Shown: piece after piece, positions 992 through 22,286 of the stretch
Layout of the letters: each line of letters opens with the position of its first letter
How positions within the stretch are numbered: position 1 is the stretch's first letter
Virus record (IMG/VR): IMGVR_UViG_3300031999_000210
Location: 1-22,608 of that record
Strand: one strand, 5' to 3'
DNA: 22,608 nt
Origin: a virus
Notes under the pieces: generated by a model
Database searches by the model: none
What the model was told of the DNA's origin: nothing
Seen by the model: the letters and a program-made list of their open reading frames with translations, nothing else
Position numbers and translations under genes: made by a program

Positions 992-2497
992 TTAAAGCTC
1001 GGAGATTCTTAAAGAAATGTTTTTAAATGGAAATCCTTCATGTCTATATATTTTTAATCTCTCTAGCCAATGGTCGTAAAGATAGTTCGTTCCTATTACT
1101 CCGGTTCTCTTCTGCCAACATAAATCATCAACAACATCAAAAAGAGTCATTGTTGATTTGATCTCTGTTTTTCTAAGACCTCTACCAATACTTTGAATTA
1201 TTCTCTGTGATGACTTTGCGCTTGATCCAAAAATAATAATGTTAAGATTTGGAATATTTACTCCTGTTGACATTGTAGCATAAGTAGCGCATATAATACT
1301 TCCAATTCCTGTATTAACTATTTTTCTAATTCTTTCTCTTTCATCACCTTTAACTTTTCCATAAATCTCATATACTTGTCTAGCAGTAAATTCATTCTGT
1401 AAATATGTTTTAATTGATCTAAGATGTTCTATTCTCTGTACCAAAAGTAAAACATTTTTAGATGGCCCACATTTCTCAATAATATATTTAAAAACTTTAT
1501 TCCTATCTCGATATGCTATTATTTTTTCAAATTCATCTTGATATTCACCACTTTTATCAATCATAGTTTCTGGATATTTACAAAGTACATTAACAATATT
1601 TATGGTTGCTAGTACCTTTTTCTCTATGAGTTCTAATGACTTTACAGTTGATACAATTTTACCAATATATCCTATGAGAGATCCGATGTTGATTGCTTCT
1701 GTTGGAAGAGTACCAGTACATCCCATTCTCCAAGAACAATTGATCATTCTCGAAAGTACATTTACTAAAACTTTACTCTTAAATGTTGTTCCATGTACTT
1801 CGTCAACCATAAAAGCATCTACTTTATCCATAAAACTCTGAGGCAATTTATGAAGTGTCTGCCATGTTGATATTAGATATTGTTTAGAAAAATCCCTGTT
1901 GTCAGAATCATGATAAATTGTTCCAAAATCTTCATCAAAATTATTGTAACCATATGATATAAAATCAGTTCTCATTTGCTCCACAAGAGAAATAGAAGGA
2001 ACAATTAAAATAAATTTTCCTTTCATTCCGATCATTTGAAAATACTTGACAATACAATAAATAACTAAACTCTTTCCAGATCCAGTTGCTAATTCAATTA
2101 AACATCTCTTATTTTTTATCATTTGTCTAACAGCAATCTCTTGATAATCTCTCAATTTCCATTTACTATCGGGAGGAAATAATACTTTTAAAAACTCTGT
2201 TATTTCTTCATCTGTAATTTTATTTGATAAAGAAGATTCGTCAAATGTCAATTCAAATTCATAATTAAAAGACTTACAGAATTCTTTAAGATTTTTTAGA
2301 AATCCTATTGGTAAAGTAAAATTATTAAAATTCAAGAATGATGATTTCCCATTCCATAATCGTGCTTTGAAAATAGGAAAATACTTATAACCGGGAACGT
2401 AGCAAGAAAAATGTTCATGTATCTCATTAGCAATATCATTTGAGATTTCTAATTGCAAAAAAGTTTCATTGAGTTTATTTATTCTTACATCAATCAT
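992..2497 (-). CDS. uvsW: UvsW-like recombination and branch-migration helicase
   Basis: A 501-residue superfamily 2 helicase, close to the 503 residues of T4 UvsW. Visible motifs are Walker A ATGSGKS (137-143), DEVH box (232-235), and a motif VI of the form QSIGRGLR near residue 440. The first ~110 residues form a separate N-terminal domain before the KLRDYQ Q-like region, as in UvsW. In T4 the enzyme unwinds R-loops and branched recombination intermediates, which shuts off origin-dependent initiation and promotes recombination-dependent replication. The start ATG at 2497 overlaps the stop of the upstream uvsY-like gene by 4 bases (ATGA), so the two are translationally coupled. The stop lies immediately before the late promoter of the next gene. 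Assignment is from motifs, length and the uvsY neighbour. Confidence 0.93.
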   Translation of the reverse strand: MIDVRINKLNETFLQLEISNDIANEIHEHFSCYVPGYKYFPIFKARLWNGKSSFLNFNNFTLPIGFLKNLKEFCKSFNYEFELTFDESSLSNKITDEEITEFLKVLFPPDSKWKLRDYQEIAVRQMIKNKRCLIELATGSGKSLVIYCIVKYFQMIGMKGKFILIVPSISLVEQMRTDFISYGYNNFDEDFGTIYHDSDNRDFSKQYLISTWQTLHKLPQSFMDKVDAFMVDEVHGTTFKSKVLVNVLSRMINCSWRMGCTGTLPTEAINIGSLIGYIGKIVSTVKSLELIEKKVLATINIVNVLCKYPETMIDKSGEYQDEFEKIIAYRDRNKVFKYIIEKCGPSKNVLLLVQRIEHLRSIKTYLQNEFTARQVYEIYGKVKGDERERIRKIVNTGIGSIICATYATMSTGVNIPNLNIIIFGSSAKSSQRIIQSIGRGLRKTEIKSTMTLFDVVDDLCWQKRTGVIGTNYLYDHWLERLKIYRHEGFPFKNISLRISEL

Positions 2498-2907
2498 ATT
2501 CCCAATCCCAATTTTAATTTCTGATTATCTAAATAATTTTTTATATTAAATGAATTTTTACTTATCATGTCTAAACTTTTTTCGAGATGATCAATATAAA
2601 CCTGATTCTTTGCTATTTTTCCTACTAGAGTTCTGTATTTATCATTCATCAAAATATAAGTTTCTATACTATTTTTCTGCTTCCCAACATCAAAACCATC
2701 ATATCCTTTTTTAATTAACTCATGATATTGTTTTCCATACATCTCAATTCTCTGTTGCTCCAATTGCGCCTGAGACATTCTTTCAGAAGACAATAATTTC
2801 AAATATTTATGGTACGTCCTGCCAACAGCTAAAATTTTCTGAGAAATATTATCTTCTGTAAAAGTCAGATCTTCTTCAAGCTGTATCTGTAATTCCTCAA
2901 ACGTCAT
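2494..2907 (-). CDS. uvsY: UvsY-like recombination mediator
   Basis: This protein has 137 residues, the same length as T4 UvsY. The N-terminus (MTFEELQIQLEEDL) has the same pattern as T4 UvsY (MRLEDLQEELKKDV). The C-terminal helix (around residues 108-128, SLDMISKNSFNIKNYLDNQK) matches the corresponding T4 stretch in its spacing of hydrophobic and basic residues. It is helical and charged with no membrane segment. UvsY loads UvsX recombinase onto gp32-coated single-stranded DNA, and both partners are encoded further along this window. It lies directly upstream of and overlaps uvsW. AAAGGATG is a good ribosome site for the ATG at 2907. No confident promoter was found in the AT-rich upstream stretch, though the repeats there could carry one. 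The assignment combines remote similarity, length and synteny. Confidence 0.78.
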   Translation of the reverse strand: MTFEELQIQLEEDLTFTEDNISQKILAVGRTYHKYLKLLSSERMSQAQLEQQRIEMYGKQYHELIKKGYDGFDVGKQKNSIETYILMNDKYRTLVGKIAKNQVYIDHLEKSLDMISKNSFNIKNYLDNQKLKLGLGI

Positions 2908-3129
2908 ATAAACATCCTTTTAGTAAAGTGGAAGTATCTCAATTGTATATATAATACTCCGAAATACCCTTAATGCTGATAGTTGATTAGACAAATATTA
3001 ACAAACTAGGCGTTAAGAATTACAACATCATCTTTAAATTAAAAAATCAGAGGTGTGAGGCGAAGCCGAACTGAGGGAGTCTTCGACCGAAGCAATTTGT
3101 AACTTTTAAAGGTAGGCAAAATTTACCGC
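2908..3129. other. Non-coding spacer upstream of uvsY
   Basis: There is no convincing ORF on either strand. The spacer holds the uvsY ribosome site, an AT-rich leader, the GC-rich patch at 3049-3093 and a small GGTA/TACC hairpin at about 3111-3127. Together with the repeats and hairpins that follow, it makes up the 655-base gene-free interval from 2908 to 3562. Confidence 0.7.
3049..3093. other. GC-rich structured patch within AT-rich spacer
   Basis: About 45 bases stand out from the AT-rich surroundings. They contain GGCGAAGCC (3059-3067), which includes the very stable mini-hairpin core GCGAAGC, and CTTCGACCGAAG (3081-3092), which can fold as a short hairpin. CGAAG at 3061-3065 can alternatively pair with CTTCG at 3081-3085, so two folds compete. 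It could belong to a small RNA, a protein-binding site or an origin element. None of these is shown. Confidence 0.4.
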
Positions 3130-3283
3130 TTTAATTCTTTACAAAGTTGATCAACAAAGTAAACAACTATCTTTGCGGTGATTTTCAAAAAAATTTAGTT
3201 ATATAGCTTTACTATCTTTTATTTATTATATAATATAATATATATAATCAATATAAGAGATTCCAAAGAGATTTTTTTTTGAT
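3130..3283. repeat. Long AT-rich direct repeat, copy 1
   Basis: This is the first of two adjacent copies of a ~155-base unit. It shares with copy 2 a 39-base identical block (3136-3174), a block of about 38 bases around ATAGCTTTACTATC through a TATAAT-rich run, and an end block of over 20 bases finishing in a T-run. The first block contains the perfect palindrome GTTGATCAAC (3146-3155), flanked by ACAAAGT on both sides. The centre is almost pure A and T and would melt easily. Confidence 0.9.
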
Positions 3284-3298
3284 CCAATTTTTTGAGGT

Positions 3299-3456
3299 TT
3301 TAATCTTTACAAAGTTGATCAACAAAGTAAACAACTATCTTTTCTGTTTTTTCGGTGATTTTCAAAAATTTTTAGTATTATAGCTTTACTATCTTTTATT
3401 TATTATATAATATAATAATATAATACAATAAGAGATTCCAAAGAGATTTTTTTGAT
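3299..3456. repeat. Long AT-rich direct repeat, copy 2
   Basis: The second copy starts 15 bases after the first ends. It has a short T-rich insertion after the 39-base block (3304-3342) and a few small indels in the AT run. The palindrome GTTGATCAAC recurs at 3314-3323. Conserved blocks separated by drifted AT spacers suggest that the blocks, not the spacers, are under constraint. Confidence 0.9.
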
Positions 3457-3474
3457 GATTGATTAAAACAATAC

Positions 3475-3556
3475 AAGAACGCCCTAAAACCCTCGAAGAT
3501 ATTTTAGGGCAGTCAGAGTACTCCCAATCAATCTTTGAAGGTTTTAGAGCGTTCTT
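3475..3556. terminator. Nested, mutually exclusive hairpins at 3' end of nucleotidyltransferase gene
   Basis: The outer arms 3475-3491 and 3540-3556 are 17 bases each with one mismatch (around 3483/3548). A shorter inner hairpin with perfect 9-base arms GCCCTAAAA (3481-3489) and TTTTAGGGC (3502-3510) uses the same left arm, so only one of the two can form at a time. They lie just after the stop codon of the minus-strand nucleotidyltransferase gene (stop at 3563). On the minus strand only a broken T-run follows (TTGTTTTAATC). They could terminate transcription, protect the 3' end, or act as a DNA cruciform site. Confidence 0.6.
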
Positions 3557-3562
3557 ACATAT

Positions 3563-4696
3563 CTACGATTGATCTTTGAGGGTTCGAGAGGTGACGTTAA
3601 GGTATTCTCCACAAATTTCTACAAGTAATTCATTAATCTTTGAAATTTGTGGGGATTTTTGAAGGGTTGAAGTTTTATAAAGTGTTTCAAGTTCTTTATC
3701 CATTGAATGAGAATATTCTTCAAGGTGATCATATGTCCATGCACCTCTTCGGATATCTCGGAGTTCTTCAGCATCAATTAGAGTTCTATCAACATTTACT
3801 TTTCCTGTTTCTAAAATTTCTTTTCCCATCCGATACAACCGACACAAATGCATTGCATGTTTTGTATCATAACCAAATTTAATTTCTAATTCTGCTCTTG
3901 ATTTATTTCTATGTTTTTTCCATTGTTCAAACTGTTCCCATTCTTTGCTTGCATAATAATATCTGAGTTCTTTTTCCGCTTCTTCTAAAAATTCGTCTTT
4001 GATGTATGATGCACCGAGAGATTTAAGAGTATTTGCATTTGACTTTATTCCTAATTGTAAATATTCCAATGCTAAGGTTTTTCGATCTTCTTTGATATAT
4101 CTTCCAAAAAGAGGAATTATATAATCTGCATAAATATCATCGAGTTCTGAAAGAAAATTCTCTTTCTCCTCATGAATCAAAAAATCTCCAAGTGTAGAAT
4201 ATACAATAGCTTTAAGTTGAGCAGTAGGAAAAATAGAAGTTGCTTTCAGACCATATGTTTCTCTTGTTGGTTTGACAGTAAGTGGATTAAGTAAAAATCT
4301 TCGATGTGTTTTGATTCTCTGAAGTTGTGCCACAGCATAGCCAGAAAATGTCATTCTTGCTCTTTTTGAAATGAATAGATGTGCATTGTCTTTCATTGTT
4401 TGCCAGTATTTTGATGTTGTGATTAGACATCTTTCTGGAGAAAATAGAAGATCTAACATATTTGGATTATTTTCAGCTATGAGTTTTGTAGCTTTGCGGA
4501 TATCGTATATTGTTCGATCTTTTTCTGGAAACCCTTGGAATTGTTCAAATTTTTCGAGACCATAAAAATAACTCTTATCGGGTATCATAACTCCTGCTCT
4601 ATCATAGTCTGCTGTTTCATCTAGGTTTGTTCCGTATGCTCTACTACCAACAACAGTCTCAAAAATAATTCTTGAAGATACATAAGAGGGTTCCAT
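3563..4696 (-). CDS. RlaP-type nucleotidyltransferase (DNA polymerase beta superfamily)
   Basis: A 377-residue protein with the polymerase-beta nucleotidyltransferase signature near its N-terminus: GSRAYG (17-22) followed by D30 and D32 in the ADYDRAG context. It continues with a region typical of the RlaP/YcgL-like family (NPNMLDLLF, then FSGYAVAQLQRIK). Known family members are linked to RNA repair, often beside RNA ligases, but no ligase or kinase is visible here. The natural substrate is therefore open: tRNA, RNA ends or small nucleotides. The start ATG at 4696 has a strong AAAGGAG ribosome site. That site abuts one arm of a perfect 14-base inverted repeat (4708-4752), and a sigma70-like promoter overlaps the other arm. 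The gene stands alone between non-coding regions, unlike its operon neighbours, which suggests an accessory cassette. Confidence 0.85.
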   Translation of the reverse strand: MEPSYVSSRIIFETVVGSRAYGTNLDETADYDRAGVMIPDKSYFYGLEKFEQFQGFPEKDRTIYDIRKATKLIAENNPNMLDLLFSPERCLITTSKYWQTMKDNAHLFISKRARMTFSGYAVAQLQRIKTHRRFLLNPLTVKPTRETYGLKATSIFPTAQLKAIVYSTLGDFLIHEEKENFLSELDDIYADYIIPLFGRYIKEDRKTLALEYLQLGIKSNANTLKSLGASYIKDEFLEEAEKELRYYYASKEWEQFEQWKKHRNKSRAELEIKFGYDTKHAMHLCRLYRMGKEILETGKVNVDRTLIDAEELRDIRRGAWTYDHLEEYSHSMDKELETLYKTSTLQKSPQISKINELLVEICGEYLNVTSRTLKDQS

Positions 4697-4707
4697 TTAA
4701 TTGCTCC

Positions 4708-4752
4708 TTTGTTTGCGATAAGGTATGAAAAATGTAGTTTATCGCAAACAAA
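4708..4752. promoter_or_regulatory. Perfect 14-bp inverted repeat reaching the ribosome site
   Basis: The arms TTTGTTTGCGATAA (4708-4721) and TTATCGCAAACAAA (4739-4752) are exact complements with a 17-base centre. On the minus strand, the arm nearer the gene supplies the first three A residues of the AAAGGAG ribosome site. The distal arm overlaps the predicted -10 element. It may be a protein operator, or an RNA hairpin that masks the ribosome site in transcripts started further upstream. Confidence 0.75.
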
Positions 4753-4778
4753 ATATATCATGGTAAAATAAAAGTCAA
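4750..4778 (-). promoter_or_regulatory. Candidate sigma70-type promoter for nucleotidyltransferase gene
   Basis: On the minus strand the -35 is TTGACT (complement of 4773-4778), followed after 17 bases by TATTTT (4750-4755), or after 15 bases by TGA-TATATT, which looks like an extended -10. Transcription would begin near 4743, inside the distal arm of the inverted repeat. Confidence 0.5.
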
Positions 4779-4784
4779 TAGAAT

Positions 4785-4792
4785 TATAAATA
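4785..4792 (+). promoter_or_regulatory. Candidate late promoter (TATAAATA) for homing endonuclease
   Basis: This is an exact match to the T4 late -10 element, about 100 bases upstream of the endonuclease start at 4891 and in intergenic DNA. Several such octamers are expected by chance in AT-rich DNA of this length, so position is the main support. Confidence 0.4.
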
Positions 4793-4890
4793 GTAATGGA
4801 CAGTTAGATTGTATGCGATAACATCCAATCAACTTTGAGGAGTCTTTCAAAGCTGTCTTGTCCATCTCACCTATTTATACGGAGTCTCAT

Positions 4891-5817
4891 ATGATAAAAT
4901 TAACTCAAGAAGAAGCTATTCAAAGATGTAAAGAAGCTCATGGAGATCGATATGATTATTCAAAAACAATATTTCAAAGCGTTCGTGATAAAATTGAAAT
5001 AATATGTAAAGAACACGGAAGTTTTTGGCAAAATTTTAAAGTACATACAAAAGGACATGGTTGTTCTATTTGTGGTAGCATATTAAAAATCAAAAAACAA
5101 AGACATTTACAGTTATTAATTGATAAATCAAATATAATTCATAATTTTTTATATGATTATTCTTCAATTAAAAATTATAAAAACAATAAAATAAAAGTTC
5201 CTATATATTGTTCTGTTTGTAAAGAAATATTTTATCAAAGTTTTAATTGTCATTTAACAGGATGTGGATGTTCAAAAGTTCATAAAATAAACCCGCTTTT
5301 ATTATCTCAAGAAGAATCTATTCTTAAGTGTAAATCTGCACATGGTAACAAATACGATTATTCAAAAACCAAATATATAAGATATAATGCTAAGATCGAA
5401 ATAATATGCAACGAACATGGTAGGTTTTTGCAGACGTATTCAACTCATGTTAGTCAAAAATGTGGATGTCCTATATGTAATTCAAGTCATGGTGAAAAAA
5501 TAATATTTAAATTTCTAAAAGAAAACAATATAGATTTTATTACTCAAAAAACCTTTGGTAATTGCAAACACAAAGGCATTTTAAAATTTGATTTTTATAT
5601 TCCCTCTAAAAATATTTTAATTGAATATGATGGTTGGCAACATTTCTTTGTTAATGAATATTTTGGTGGCATAGAAGCATTTAACGATAGAGAAATCAAA
5701 GATAATATTAAAAATAAATATTGCGAAGATAATAACATTCCGCTGATTAGAATTCCTTACTGGCTTTTAGATGATCCCAAAGAAATTGAAGAAATATTGT
5801 TAAATGATATAAAATAA
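4891..5817 (+). CDS. Free-standing EDxHD (Vsr-like) homing endonuclease with zinc-ribbon repeats
   Basis: I chose ATG 4891 (308 residues) because GGAG sits 6 bases upstream; an in-frame TTG at 4858 has no such site. The N-terminal two thirds hold three related units (about 5-62, 72-128, 139-197). Units 1 and 3 share the pattern AHG-(D/N)-(R/K)-YDYSKT, then IEIIC-x-EHG, then a C-x-I-C or C-P-I-C end, resembling DUF723-type zinc-binding repeats. The C-terminal domain (about 200-292) has E202, D234 in FDFYIP, H251 and D271 in an arrangement consistent with EDxHD homing endonucleases of the I-Bth0305I type, which are related to Vsr. Such enzymes cut DNA at long sites and spread their own gene. 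It sits alone between divergent transcription units, and its coding sequence looks even more A-rich than that of its neighbours, fitting recent entry. Confidence 0.85.
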   Translation: MIKLTQEEAIQRCKEAHGDRYDYSKTIFQSVRDKIEIICKEHGSFWQNFKVHTKGHGCSICGSILKIKKQRHLQLLIDKSNIIHNFLYDYSSIKNYKNNKIKVPIYCSVCKEIFYQSFNCHLTGCGCSKVHKINPLLLSQEESILKCKSAHGNKYDYSKTKYIRYNAKIEIICNEHGRFLQTYSTHVSQKCGCPICNSSHGEKIIFKFLKENNIDFITQKTFGNCKHKGILKFDFYIPSKNILIEYDGWQHFFVNEYFGGIEAFNDREIKDNIKNKYCEDNNIPLIRIPYWLLDDPKEIEEILLNDIK

Positions 5818-5820
5818 TCC

Positions 5821-5849
5821 TTGACTTTCAAAAAAAGATCCGCTATACT
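5821..5849 (+). promoter_or_regulatory. Sigma70-type promoter upstream of gene 46
   Basis: TTGACT and TATACT are 17 bases apart, with an A-rich spacer ending in CGC. The expected start is near 5856, about 30 bases before the ATG. It is one of five promoters in the window sharing CGCTATACT. Confidence 0.85.
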
Positions 5850-8123: not shown

Positions 8124-8519
8124 ATGGCACAGAATTATATCGATCCGGTAATGTTTCATAATTTACTCGTGGCTTATAAGAACAGTGGTGAGTCCGATAA
8201 AAAAATATGGAACGAGTTAGGAAAGTGTTTTCTTCTTATAGCTAAACGACAACTCATGAGAGGAAAGTTTTTTAATTATAGTGAGGAACGCAGGAATGAA
8301 ATGGAATCATTGGCATGTCTTTATATGATTCGTTATTACAAGACCTTCGATTTAACTAGAGGAACCTCTGCATTCGCTTATTTTACTCAGATTGCTTTTA
8401 GAGCGGCGCAACAAATATTAAATGTATATAAAGTCAGAGATACTATGTTTACTTCTCTCGATTTTATTACAAGCAAAGAAAATGTTTTTACTTCCGAAAA
8501 TTATAATACAGAGGAATAA
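8124..8519 (+). CDS. 55: gp55-like late-transcription sigma factor
   Basis: A 131-residue protein, shorter than T4 gp55 (185). The core around residues 30-100 fits the gp55 pattern: LGKCFLLIAKRQLMRGKFFNY, then a segment equivalent to RDEMISDALENC (here RNEMESLACLY), then the FAYFTQIAFRAAQQIL stretch, very close to FAYFTTIIWRAFVRRI of T4. This is the sigma region 2 equivalent that reads TATAAATA with host core polymerase. The family carries a clamp-binding motif at the C-terminus. Here SLDFI occurs near residues 113-117 instead, followed by an acidic tail ending NTEE. The gene lies between genes 46 and 47. The ribosome site GAGGG is moderate. Confidence 0.88.
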   Translation: MAQNYIDPVMFHNLLVAYKNSGESDKKIWNELGKCFLLIAKRQLMRGKFFNYSEERRNEMESLACLYMIRYYKTFDLTRGTSAFAYFTQIAFRAAQQILNVYKVRDTMFTSLDFITSKENVFTSENYNTEE

Positions 8520-16890: not shown

Positions 16891-17069
16891 ATAAGAAAAT
16901 TGCCAAGGTTATAAACAGCGCATGTATGAACGAAACATCCGCTTTTAAAAATGATCTCAAACGTCTATGGAATAAAACTCCTAGACCTTTGAGGAATAAA
17001 TTTAAAAACGATCTCATTGAAGCAAGTAACACAACCAAGGAAGAGATTAATGTTGAACAATCCGCTTAA
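16887..17069 (+). CDS. 60-residue basic protein overlapping uvsX, unknown function
   Basis: The ATG at 16887 overlaps the uvsX stop (ATGA), with AAAGGT upstream. The product is helical and lysine/asparagine-rich (FKNDLKRLWNKTPRPLRNKF) and has no recognisable motif. The downstream gene starts inside its last 20 bases. A compact overlap chain supports a real gene, but the length is short. Confidence 0.55.
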   Translation: MNKKIAKVINSACMNETSAFKNDLKRLWNKTPRPLRNKFKNDLIEASNTTKEEINVEQSA

Positions 17070-17544
17070 GATATATTTGGCAGGTTTCATAGAATTTCAA
17101 AATGATGGTAAAGAATTGGTTCCTGAATGTATGGAATGGAGAAAATACATTCGGGAATTCTATCAAAAGTTCCATACGTCATCTGGAGAAATTTTAGATT
17201 ATGGCATTGAATTTTTTGATCCATTAATAGGAGAAAGTCCCTCTGAAAAACTATCAGATGCTTTAATTTTCTCCAAGGATTATTTGTCTATTAAGAACTG
17301 TGATATGCTTATTTGTAATTTTGATACATTCCATAATTTAAGACCTGCTATTGGTACGACATTGGAGTGTGGAATTGCTTATGAGATGAAGAAACAAATC
17401 ATAGTCATTTCCAGTGATCCAAGATATATTAATCATCCTTTTATTCAGCGTATGGCATGTTCAATTTTTCCAGATGTAGAATCACTTTGCAAATCTAAAA
17501 TACTTAATATTTTCTTCAAGTCAATTAATACTGCACTTTATTAA
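17050..17544 (+). CDS. Nucleoside 2-deoxyribosyltransferase-like enzyme
   Basis: I chose ATG 17050 (164 residues) because of AAGGAAGAG just upstream; the in-frame TTG at 17017 lacks support. The fold signature is clear: KIYLAGFIE at the N-terminus (7-15), CDMLICNFD (84-92), then IGTTLECGIAYEMKKQIIVI (101-120), in which E106 matches the catalytic glutamate of the family. These enzymes break or exchange the base-deoxyribose bond of nucleosides or nucleotides. In phages they may salvage bases, remove unwanted dNMPs or support modified-base synthesis. It sits between uvsX and helicase 41, so early expression is likely. The substrate cannot be predicted. Confidence 0.8.
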   Translation: MLNNPLKIYLAGFIEFQNDGKELVPECMEWRKYIREFYQKFHTSSGEILDYGIEFFDPLIGESPSEKLSDALIFSKDYLSIKNCDMLICNFDTFHNLRPAIGTTLECGIAYEMKKQIIVISSDPRYINHPFIQRMACSIFPDVESLCKSKILNIFFKSINTALY

Positions 17545-20099: not shown

Positions 20100-20659
20100 T
20101 GGACAGAGTAGATATTTTAAACATCATTTATAATTTCTTGAATATGCTATCGGGTCTTAATGTAAGATTCTTTGAACAACCAGTTGACTTATACAATAGA
20201 CGAGGAGTTCAATCTTTTATAAATAAAGCAAAGATAGTAGCAAGAGATATAAATAGTAGTAAATATTCTACAGATCAATTCATAAAATTCTTGTTTTTAA
20301 CTGCGCTACTAGAAGGAAAAGCAGGAATTTATACATTTCAACCAAAGGAGGTCATTAGAATTAGACGTATTACAGAACGGTTTGCAAAGAAAGATGAAAA
20401 CATTATTAACTCCATATGTCAAAAGTATGGAATGCCCGAAGAGGGTTTGATGGAGGTGAGAGATAACGGAGAGACTATACTTTATAAACTTTTAAAGACA
20501 AAGCACATTTCGATGGCATACGCTTTAAAAAATTATAAAAAGGTCTTGACAATTGCAGAAAAAAACGCTATACTATTTAACACAGAATACAGTATATTTC
20601 ATAAAACATTCAAACAATTCATTCAATTCATTCAAGGAGAAGCGTATGCAAAAATTTAA
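20099..20659 (+). CDS. 59: gp59-like helicase loader (tentative), GTG start
   Basis: A 186-residue helical protein (T4 gp59 is 217) that starts with GTG overlapping the previous stop (TAGTG), with GGAG 8 bases upstream. By eye it parallels T4 gp59 in three stretches: an early helix around YNFLNML, RRGVQSFINK near 34-43, and ILYKLLKTKHISMAYALKNY (about 128-147), which resembles YIFKLLQSNIISFETFILLD of T4. In T4 the gene sits directly before 32, as here. gp59 loads gp41 onto gp32-coated forks. The last part of the gene carries the gene 32 promoter, leader and ribosome site, and it overlaps gene 32 by 14 bases. The final ~35 residues may be shaped by these DNA signals. Confidence 0.62.
   Translation: MDRVDILNIIYNFLNMLSGLNVRFFEQPVDLYNRRGVQSFINKAKIVARDINSSKYSTDQFIKFLFLTALLEGKAGIYTFQPKEVIRIRRITERFAKKDENIINSICQKYGMPEEGLMEVRDNGETILYKLLKTKHISMAYALKNYKKVLTIAEKNAILFNTEYSIFHKTFKQFIQFIQGEAYAKI
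20546..20574 (+). promoter_or_regulatory. Strong sigma70-type promoter for gene 32, inside the 59-like gene
   Basis: TTGACA and TATACT are 17 bases apart, the best -35 of the five. It lies within the coding sequence of the upstream gene and gives a leader of about 65 bases before the gene 32 ATG. Confidence 0.85.
20608..20640 (+). promoter_or_regulatory. Unstructured repeat-bearing leader of gene 32, candidate autogenous operator
   Basis: The leader carries a tandem 9-base repeat CAATTCATT (20615-20623, 20624-20632) preceded by ATTCAA and running straight into AAGGAGA. It is A/U-rich with no obvious stem. T4 gp32 represses its own mRNA by binding an unstructured A/U-rich leader over the ribosome site, so a similar role is plausible. 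Confidence 0.45.
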
Positions 20660-21833: not shown

Positions 21834-22286
21834 ATGATTAAATATATTCAATATGATATTTTTAAGGGTGGGGATGATGTCATTGTTCATGGTTGTAACT
21901 GTCTATGTAATTTTGGCGCAGGGATAGCTCTTCAAGTTTTTAAAATATATCCAGAAGCTTATTATGTTGACAAGAAAACAAAATATAAAGATGCTAGTAA
22001 GCTCGGAACATTTACATCTTGGACAGGACATAATATTTATGATTATTCAAGAGATATTACAATAGTTAATGCGTATACACAATTTTATCCTAATATAGCA
22101 TCCAAACCATTTGATTATAACGCATTTGAGACTGTACTTCCAAAAATTAAAGATTCTTTTCATAATAAAACAATTGCATTTCCTAAAATCGGATGTGGTC
22201 TCGCAGGTGGTGATTGGAATATTGTTTCTAAAATGATTGAAGATTGTTTTAAAGAAAAAGAAATAAAAGTCTACTTATGGAAATAA
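21834..22286 (+). CDS. Macrodomain protein (ADP-ribose-binding, Poa1/TARG1-like)
   Basis: A 150-residue single-domain protein. HGCNCLCNFGAGIA (19-32) is the phosphate-proximal loop and PKIGCGLAGGDW (117-128) is the second ligand-binding loop of macrodomains of the ALC1/TARG1/Poa1 class. The fold would bind ADP-ribose and may remove it from modified targets or hydrolyse ADP-ribose phosphate. The position where TARG1 has its aspartate (GCGLD) is alanine here, so a TARG1-type mechanism is not assured. In a phage it could process NAD-derived metabolites or reverse host ADP-ribosylation defences such as DarT-type toxins. That is inference. The ribosome site is weak. The stop overlaps the primase start. 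Confidence 0.88.
   Translation: MIKYIQYDIFKGGDDVIVHGCNCLCNFGAGIALQVFKIYPEAYYVDKKTKYKDASKLGTFTSWTGHNIYDYSRDITIVNAYTQFYPNIASKPFDYNAFETVLPKIKDSFHNKTIAFPKIGCGLAGGDWNIVSKMIEDCFKEKEIKVYLWK

Follow-up and report, generated by a model that had tools for sequence, protein, structure and literature searches.

A tandemly duplicated cis-acting element beside uvsY in a divergent T4-like phage: a candidate origin-type site

Introduction

The T4 origins oriF and oriG each consist of a promoter plus an A+T-rich unwinding element and, like oriE, are situated at switches of gene direction and base skew (PMC3016281). The primer RNA of oriF, also known as ori(uvsY), is the uvsY transcript (T4 record). T4 oriE carries a cluster of evenly spaced 12-nt repeats, and the origin of the PLE satellite is built of three ~30-bp RepA_N iterons and depends on a RepA initiator.

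Herein, we describe two long AT-rich direct repeats located next to uvsY in a T4-like phage, which a first-pass annotation made from the DNA letters had proposed as a candidate replication origin. The locus resembles T4 oriF in its place beside uvsY, its A+T-rich element, its proximity to a switch of gene direction and base skew and the T4-type replisome encoded around it; a transcript coming from the side of the upstream neighbour would also run towards uvsY, as in T4. Unlike in T4, where uvsW and uvsY occupy opposite strands and the upstream neighbour is gene 25, here both genes lie on one strand and the neighbour is a nucleotidyltransferase gene; the gap is longer, it holds tandem copies and a palindrome, and a MotA-type promoter is unsupported. 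With oriE, the locus has in common that direct repeats occur in a candidate origin region close to where gene direction changes, although they come as two ~150-bp copies and not as a cluster of short ones. With the PLE origin, it shares semi-palindromic repeats in a long non-coding region. However, an iteron origin combines several short direct repeats with a cognate initiator, whereas we found two long copies and identified no initiator among the window proteins scanned.

Results

The stretch analysed (hereafter, the window) is a complete 22,608-bp IMG/VR record, which is probably a fragment of a larger genome. It encodes a T4-type replication and recombination set, namely UvsW, UvsY, 46/47 (identified by tblastn synteny with the relatives and from their sequence), DNA polymerase B, UvsX, a gp41-like helicase and gp32, along with a gp55-type late sigma factor (PHROG 234; 8124-8519). 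A Macro-domain protein and a nucleoside 2-deoxyribosyltransferase are encoded as well (21834-22286, +; 17017-17544, +). Since identity to isolate phages is only ~35% for UvsW and ~30% for the polymerase, the window phage is a very divergent T4-like member; blastn against isolate phages gave short, weak matches only.

The best relative is G001 (68 kb), with identities of 72% for the polymerase, 66% for UvsW, 55% for gp46 and 48% for UvsY, followed by G002 (158 kb) and G006 (104 kb), both near 38% for UvsW. No further relatives emerged from IMG/VR single-protein scans (UvsY, UvsW, gp46) or from a polymerase scan of genome contigs. The DNA polymerase ORF of G001 (L002:9917-13819) encodes 1300 aa versus 857 aa in the window and contains an extra, intein-like insert. 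G002 harbours diverged direct-repeat families (L026, L029) of 58-87 nt spaced by ~220 bp or more, which are possibly repeated protein modules.

Table 1. Coordinates of the features at the uvsY locus of the window.
Feature	Position	Strand	Remarks
uvsW helicase gene	992..2497	-	
uvsY	2494..2907	-	PHROG 231, E 7e-15
Non-coding gap between uvsY and the nucleotidyltransferase gene	2908..3562		655 bp; longest in the window
Degenerate T4-late-type promoter TATTATATATACAATT	2941..2956	-	~35 bp before uvsY; score 8.7, rank 11 in the window
Repeat copy 1	3130..3278		149 bp; non-coding, AT-rich
Near-dyad TTTAC-AAA-GTTGATCAAC-AAA-GTAAA, copy 1	3138..3163		
Candidate DNA-unwinding element, copy 1	3207..3256		least stable 50 bp of the window
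Block ATAAGAGATTCCAAAGAGATTTTTTT, copy 1	3253..3278		26 bp, identical in both copies
Repeat copy 2	3299..3453		155 bp
Near-dyad TTTAC-AAA-GTTGATCAAC-AAA-GTAAA, copy 2	3306..3331		
Candidate DNA-unwinding element, copy 2	3376..3425		second least stable 50 bp of the window
Block ATAAGAGATTCCAAAGAGATTTTTTT, copy 2	3428..3453		26 bp, identical in both copies
Long RNA hairpin directly after the nucleotidyltransferase stop codon	3470..3562	- (read towards uvsY)	z -5.8 (plus strand, z -3.7)
Nucleotidyltransferase gene	3563..4696	-	PHROG 388, RlaP; same family and place in G001

The tandem repeat noticed in the first-pass annotation is real (Table 1). Its two direct copies are 88.6% identical with gaps included (E = 7.8e-47), and the ~155 bases given for it hold as the copy length, the start-to-start period being 168-177 bp. 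In ungapped columns, the copies agree at 151 of 157 positions (96%), which indicates a young duplication, younger than the divergence between the window and G001. The remaining differences are mostly indels in A/T or T runs. The identical blocks separated by drifted AT spacers were thus rightly seen; however, the drift amounts mostly to indels in low-complexity runs, so the identity of the blocks is not by itself a sign of selection. The palindrome GTTGATCAAC lies at 3146 and 3314 with ACAAAGT on both flanks, as annotated. Each copy of ~150 bp is laid out as a near-palindromic box, a gap of ~52 bp, a melting-prone AT run of ~50 bp and a TCCAA-containing block. A tandem-repeat scan of the region reported only AT-run periods of 5-13 bp.

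No ORF of at least 40 aa falls within the gap, in agreement with the earlier remark that no gene explains the region; a 453-bp "gap" at 20100 holds a GTG-start ORF and was not counted. Next to the repeats lies the near-perfect hairpin. We rejected it as a shared RNA element, since no such fold is present in G001; a search of the window and the gap against Rfam gave nothing at gathering score, and the sub-threshold miRNA matches reflect only this hairpin.

An easily melted run had been noted in each copy, and the two runs turned out to be the two least stable 50-bp stretches of the entire 22.6 kb. In G001, the least stable 50 bp of 68 kb (53720-53769) falls inside the syntenic gap, so both phages carry an A+T-rich candidate unwinding element of the kind found in the R-loop origins oriF and oriG of T4. 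Melting rank alone is non-specific and does not single out T4 oriF, which ranks among the 1.5% least stable 50-bp stretches of a 40-kb T4 segment but outside its top eight sites. We also ran a one-run superhelical-opening model, which ranks the repeats first if the window is treated as a single domain but places 5080-5245 ahead of them in 5-kb domains. Since this result depends on domain size and the model did not flag T4 oriF, we excluded it from the support.

The window and G001 share one gene order on one strand, namely the nucleotidyltransferase gene, a long non-coding gap and uvsY-uvsW; gp46 diverges on the other side. The gap spans 655 bp in the window and 523 bp in G001 (53490-54012), and neither sequence has a longer non-coding stretch. 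In G001, it contains one copy-like element with its parts in the same order. There, GTTTATAAAC replaces GTTGATCAAC and is followed by AGTAAAC; the palindrome is still perfect, its symmetry having been kept through paired changes, and the distance from it to the AT minimum is 57 bp, versus 52 bp in the window. A log-odds alignment of the two gaps is collinear through ACAACATC, the palindrome, CTTTACT, the AT run and the CCAA block, and its score is reached by 4 of 300 and by 6 of 500 shuffles (~1%). When either copy is compared with the G001 gap by ungapped matching, the palindrome gives the best match, with a score that 35 or 14 of 300 shuffles attain. Such evidence suggests only moderate sequence homology between the gaps. 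Because G001 has a single element, the duplication most likely occurred in the lineage of the window, and the element itself probably predates it. A search of relatives for the same blocks beside uvsY, proposed in the first-pass annotation, thus recovered one similar element, but the tandem repetition is absent from this closest relative.

In the data covered, the element is confined to this small lineage. Only short gaps adjoin uvsY at ~75 other T4-like uvsW loci for which upstream sequence is available. G002 has a gap of 86 bp upstream of uvsY without the motif, and an apparent gap in G006 was rejected, as it reads as a uvsY-sized gene that is directly preceded by another gene. The location next to uvsY, deemed suggestive in the first-pass annotation, is therefore correct but weak as evidence of an origin, since those other uvsY-uvsW loci do without such a gap. 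Among 112 loci, the motif AGTTNATNAACNNAGTAAA was found twice in the window, at one site in G001 and in no other record, a rarity that overstates the case because the motif was chosen after the alignment had been seen; it was absent from five further records. The near-dyad pattern had 0 matches in IMG/VR, from which the window's own record may be excluded. A looser motif, which was set aside, retrieved 30 stretches including G001, and none of the others was shown to lie beside a related uvsY.

Gene direction in the window switches at 4697-4857, and the cumulative GC skew forms a flat plateau of ~2 kb (2907-4857) with its minimum at 4189. The skew minimum lies at 51292 (within gp46) in G001 and at 148709 (in uvsW) in G002; in all three, direction and skew switch no more than ~2.5 kb away from the corresponding gap or from uvsY. 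On its coding strand, the nucleotidyltransferase gene shows almost no skew in the window and a low one in G001. Skew is confounded with gene direction, so this pattern fits an origin nearby but does not point to the repeats. An HNH endonuclease gene (4858-5817, +) stands between the nucleotidyltransferase gene and gp46 and was not found there in G001; it contains an internal repeat (4899-5027 / 5301-5430, 75%).

As for promoters, the plus-strand AGCTTTA followed 12 bases later by TATTAT had been likened to a MotA-type middle promoter. The pair is present at 3205 and 3382, and GCTTTA-N(9-13)-TATTAT occurs nowhere else in the window, but the MotA reading, which would place a middle-mode promoter just upstream of the unwinding element, gained no support: GCTTTA shows no enrichment ahead of genes (3 sense versus 7 antisense), and a MotA homologue (DNA-binding C-terminal domain) was not found in G001 or G002, both of which are incomplete. 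The lineage has two promoter classes of its own. The first, TTGACTTT-(A-rich)-CGCTATACT, occurs on the plus strand at 5821, 10759, 13792, 17778 and, with TTGACA, 20546; it is highly uniform, precedes replication genes and has TTGACA-N17-TATACT (TTGACA...ACATTATACT) as its counterpart in G001. The second is of the T4-late type, AATTATAAATACTAAT, which occurs at 4782 (+) and at 992 (-) and precedes several genes of G001, in keeping with the gp55-like gene.

Discussion

Overall, we conclude that the locus is a duplicated cis-acting element. Our leading reading is that of an origin-type site, to which we assign a probability of roughly 0.45. Its position fits a replication start site, a function that we infer from an easily melted element at a conserved position. 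It is tempting to suppose that a ~150-bp element, recently duplicated in tandem, works like T4 oriF. A transcript directed towards uvsY would start in the gap or read through from the nucleotidyltransferase gene, upstream of which TTGACT-N17-TATTTT at 4778 (-) could give such read-through. This transcript would open the AT runs, and the leftover RNA, as an R-loop, would prime leading-strand synthesis by the T4-type replisome encoded nearby, while the palindrome may bind a dimeric protein. The coincidence of the least stable DNA with the longest non-coding gap in both the window and G001 argues for an origin, as do the replisome and recombination genes around it. Against it, the repeats contain no conspicuous promoter of the two classes that the lineage uses (the best class 1 score in the gap is weak, rank 32), and G002, G006 and other T4-likes are without the element. 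Within the repeats, the candidate promoters that would read into the unwinding element are weak and on the minus strand.

These minus-strand candidates bring us to the strongest competitor, somewhat less probable in our opinion, namely that the element controls transcription of the uvsY-uvsW operon: each copy would supply a dyad operator and a weak minus-strand promoter, and the duplication would serve to increase expression or shift its timing. The two genes directly follow the gap, the dyad resembles a dimer site, and both copies carry on the minus strand TTGGAA-N18-TATTAT / TATATT (9 of 12 matches) and the late-type TATAATAAATAAAAGA, for which a gp55-type factor is encoded in the window. 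However, sigma-70-like matches in the region are no more frequent than shuffling predicts (19 versus 19.5), and the late-type matches in the repeats are weak (score 7.3, ranks 27-28) and unmatched in G001; the candidate at 2956 is better placed to serve uvsY. The origin and transcription-control readings are not exclusive, since the primer RNA of T4 oriF is itself the uvsY transcript.

An unlikely explanation is a chance tandem duplication in a decaying non-coding spacer, whose AT richness would be that of an ordinary spacer in a genome with an overall GC of ~31%. The youth of the copies, their indels in slippage-prone runs, the single element of G001 and the other relatives without such a gap are what one would expect of it. 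Nevertheless, phages usually trim idle spacers, and it would leave unexplained that the gap is both the longest non-coding stretch and the site of the least stable 50 bp in two genomes, with part order and spacing kept in G001 although UvsY is only 48% identical. Slightly more doubtful still is a dedicated non-coding origin independent of MotA, in which a protein bound to the palindrome would act as the initiator beside a spaced unwinding element, the whole being duplicated, unlike the transcript-primed origins of T4. Finally, the repeats could be a tandem pair of small-RNA genes, or specify an RNA antitoxin partnered with the nucleotidyltransferase. This would suit the RNA-repair-like family of that enzyme and the strong hairpin after its stop codon, but is very improbable, as folding of the repeats hardly improves on that of shuffles (z -0.3 to -1.5), no terminator-like site or Rfam family at gathering score was found, and the hairpin was not seen in G001.

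Conclusions

Returning to the origin-type reading, the locus offers a compact, duplicated and palindrome-bearing candidate in a very divergent phage, in the form of a defined ~150-bp fragment. If it is an origin, it would tell whether an origin on the side of uvsY persists while its sequence and promoter type change.
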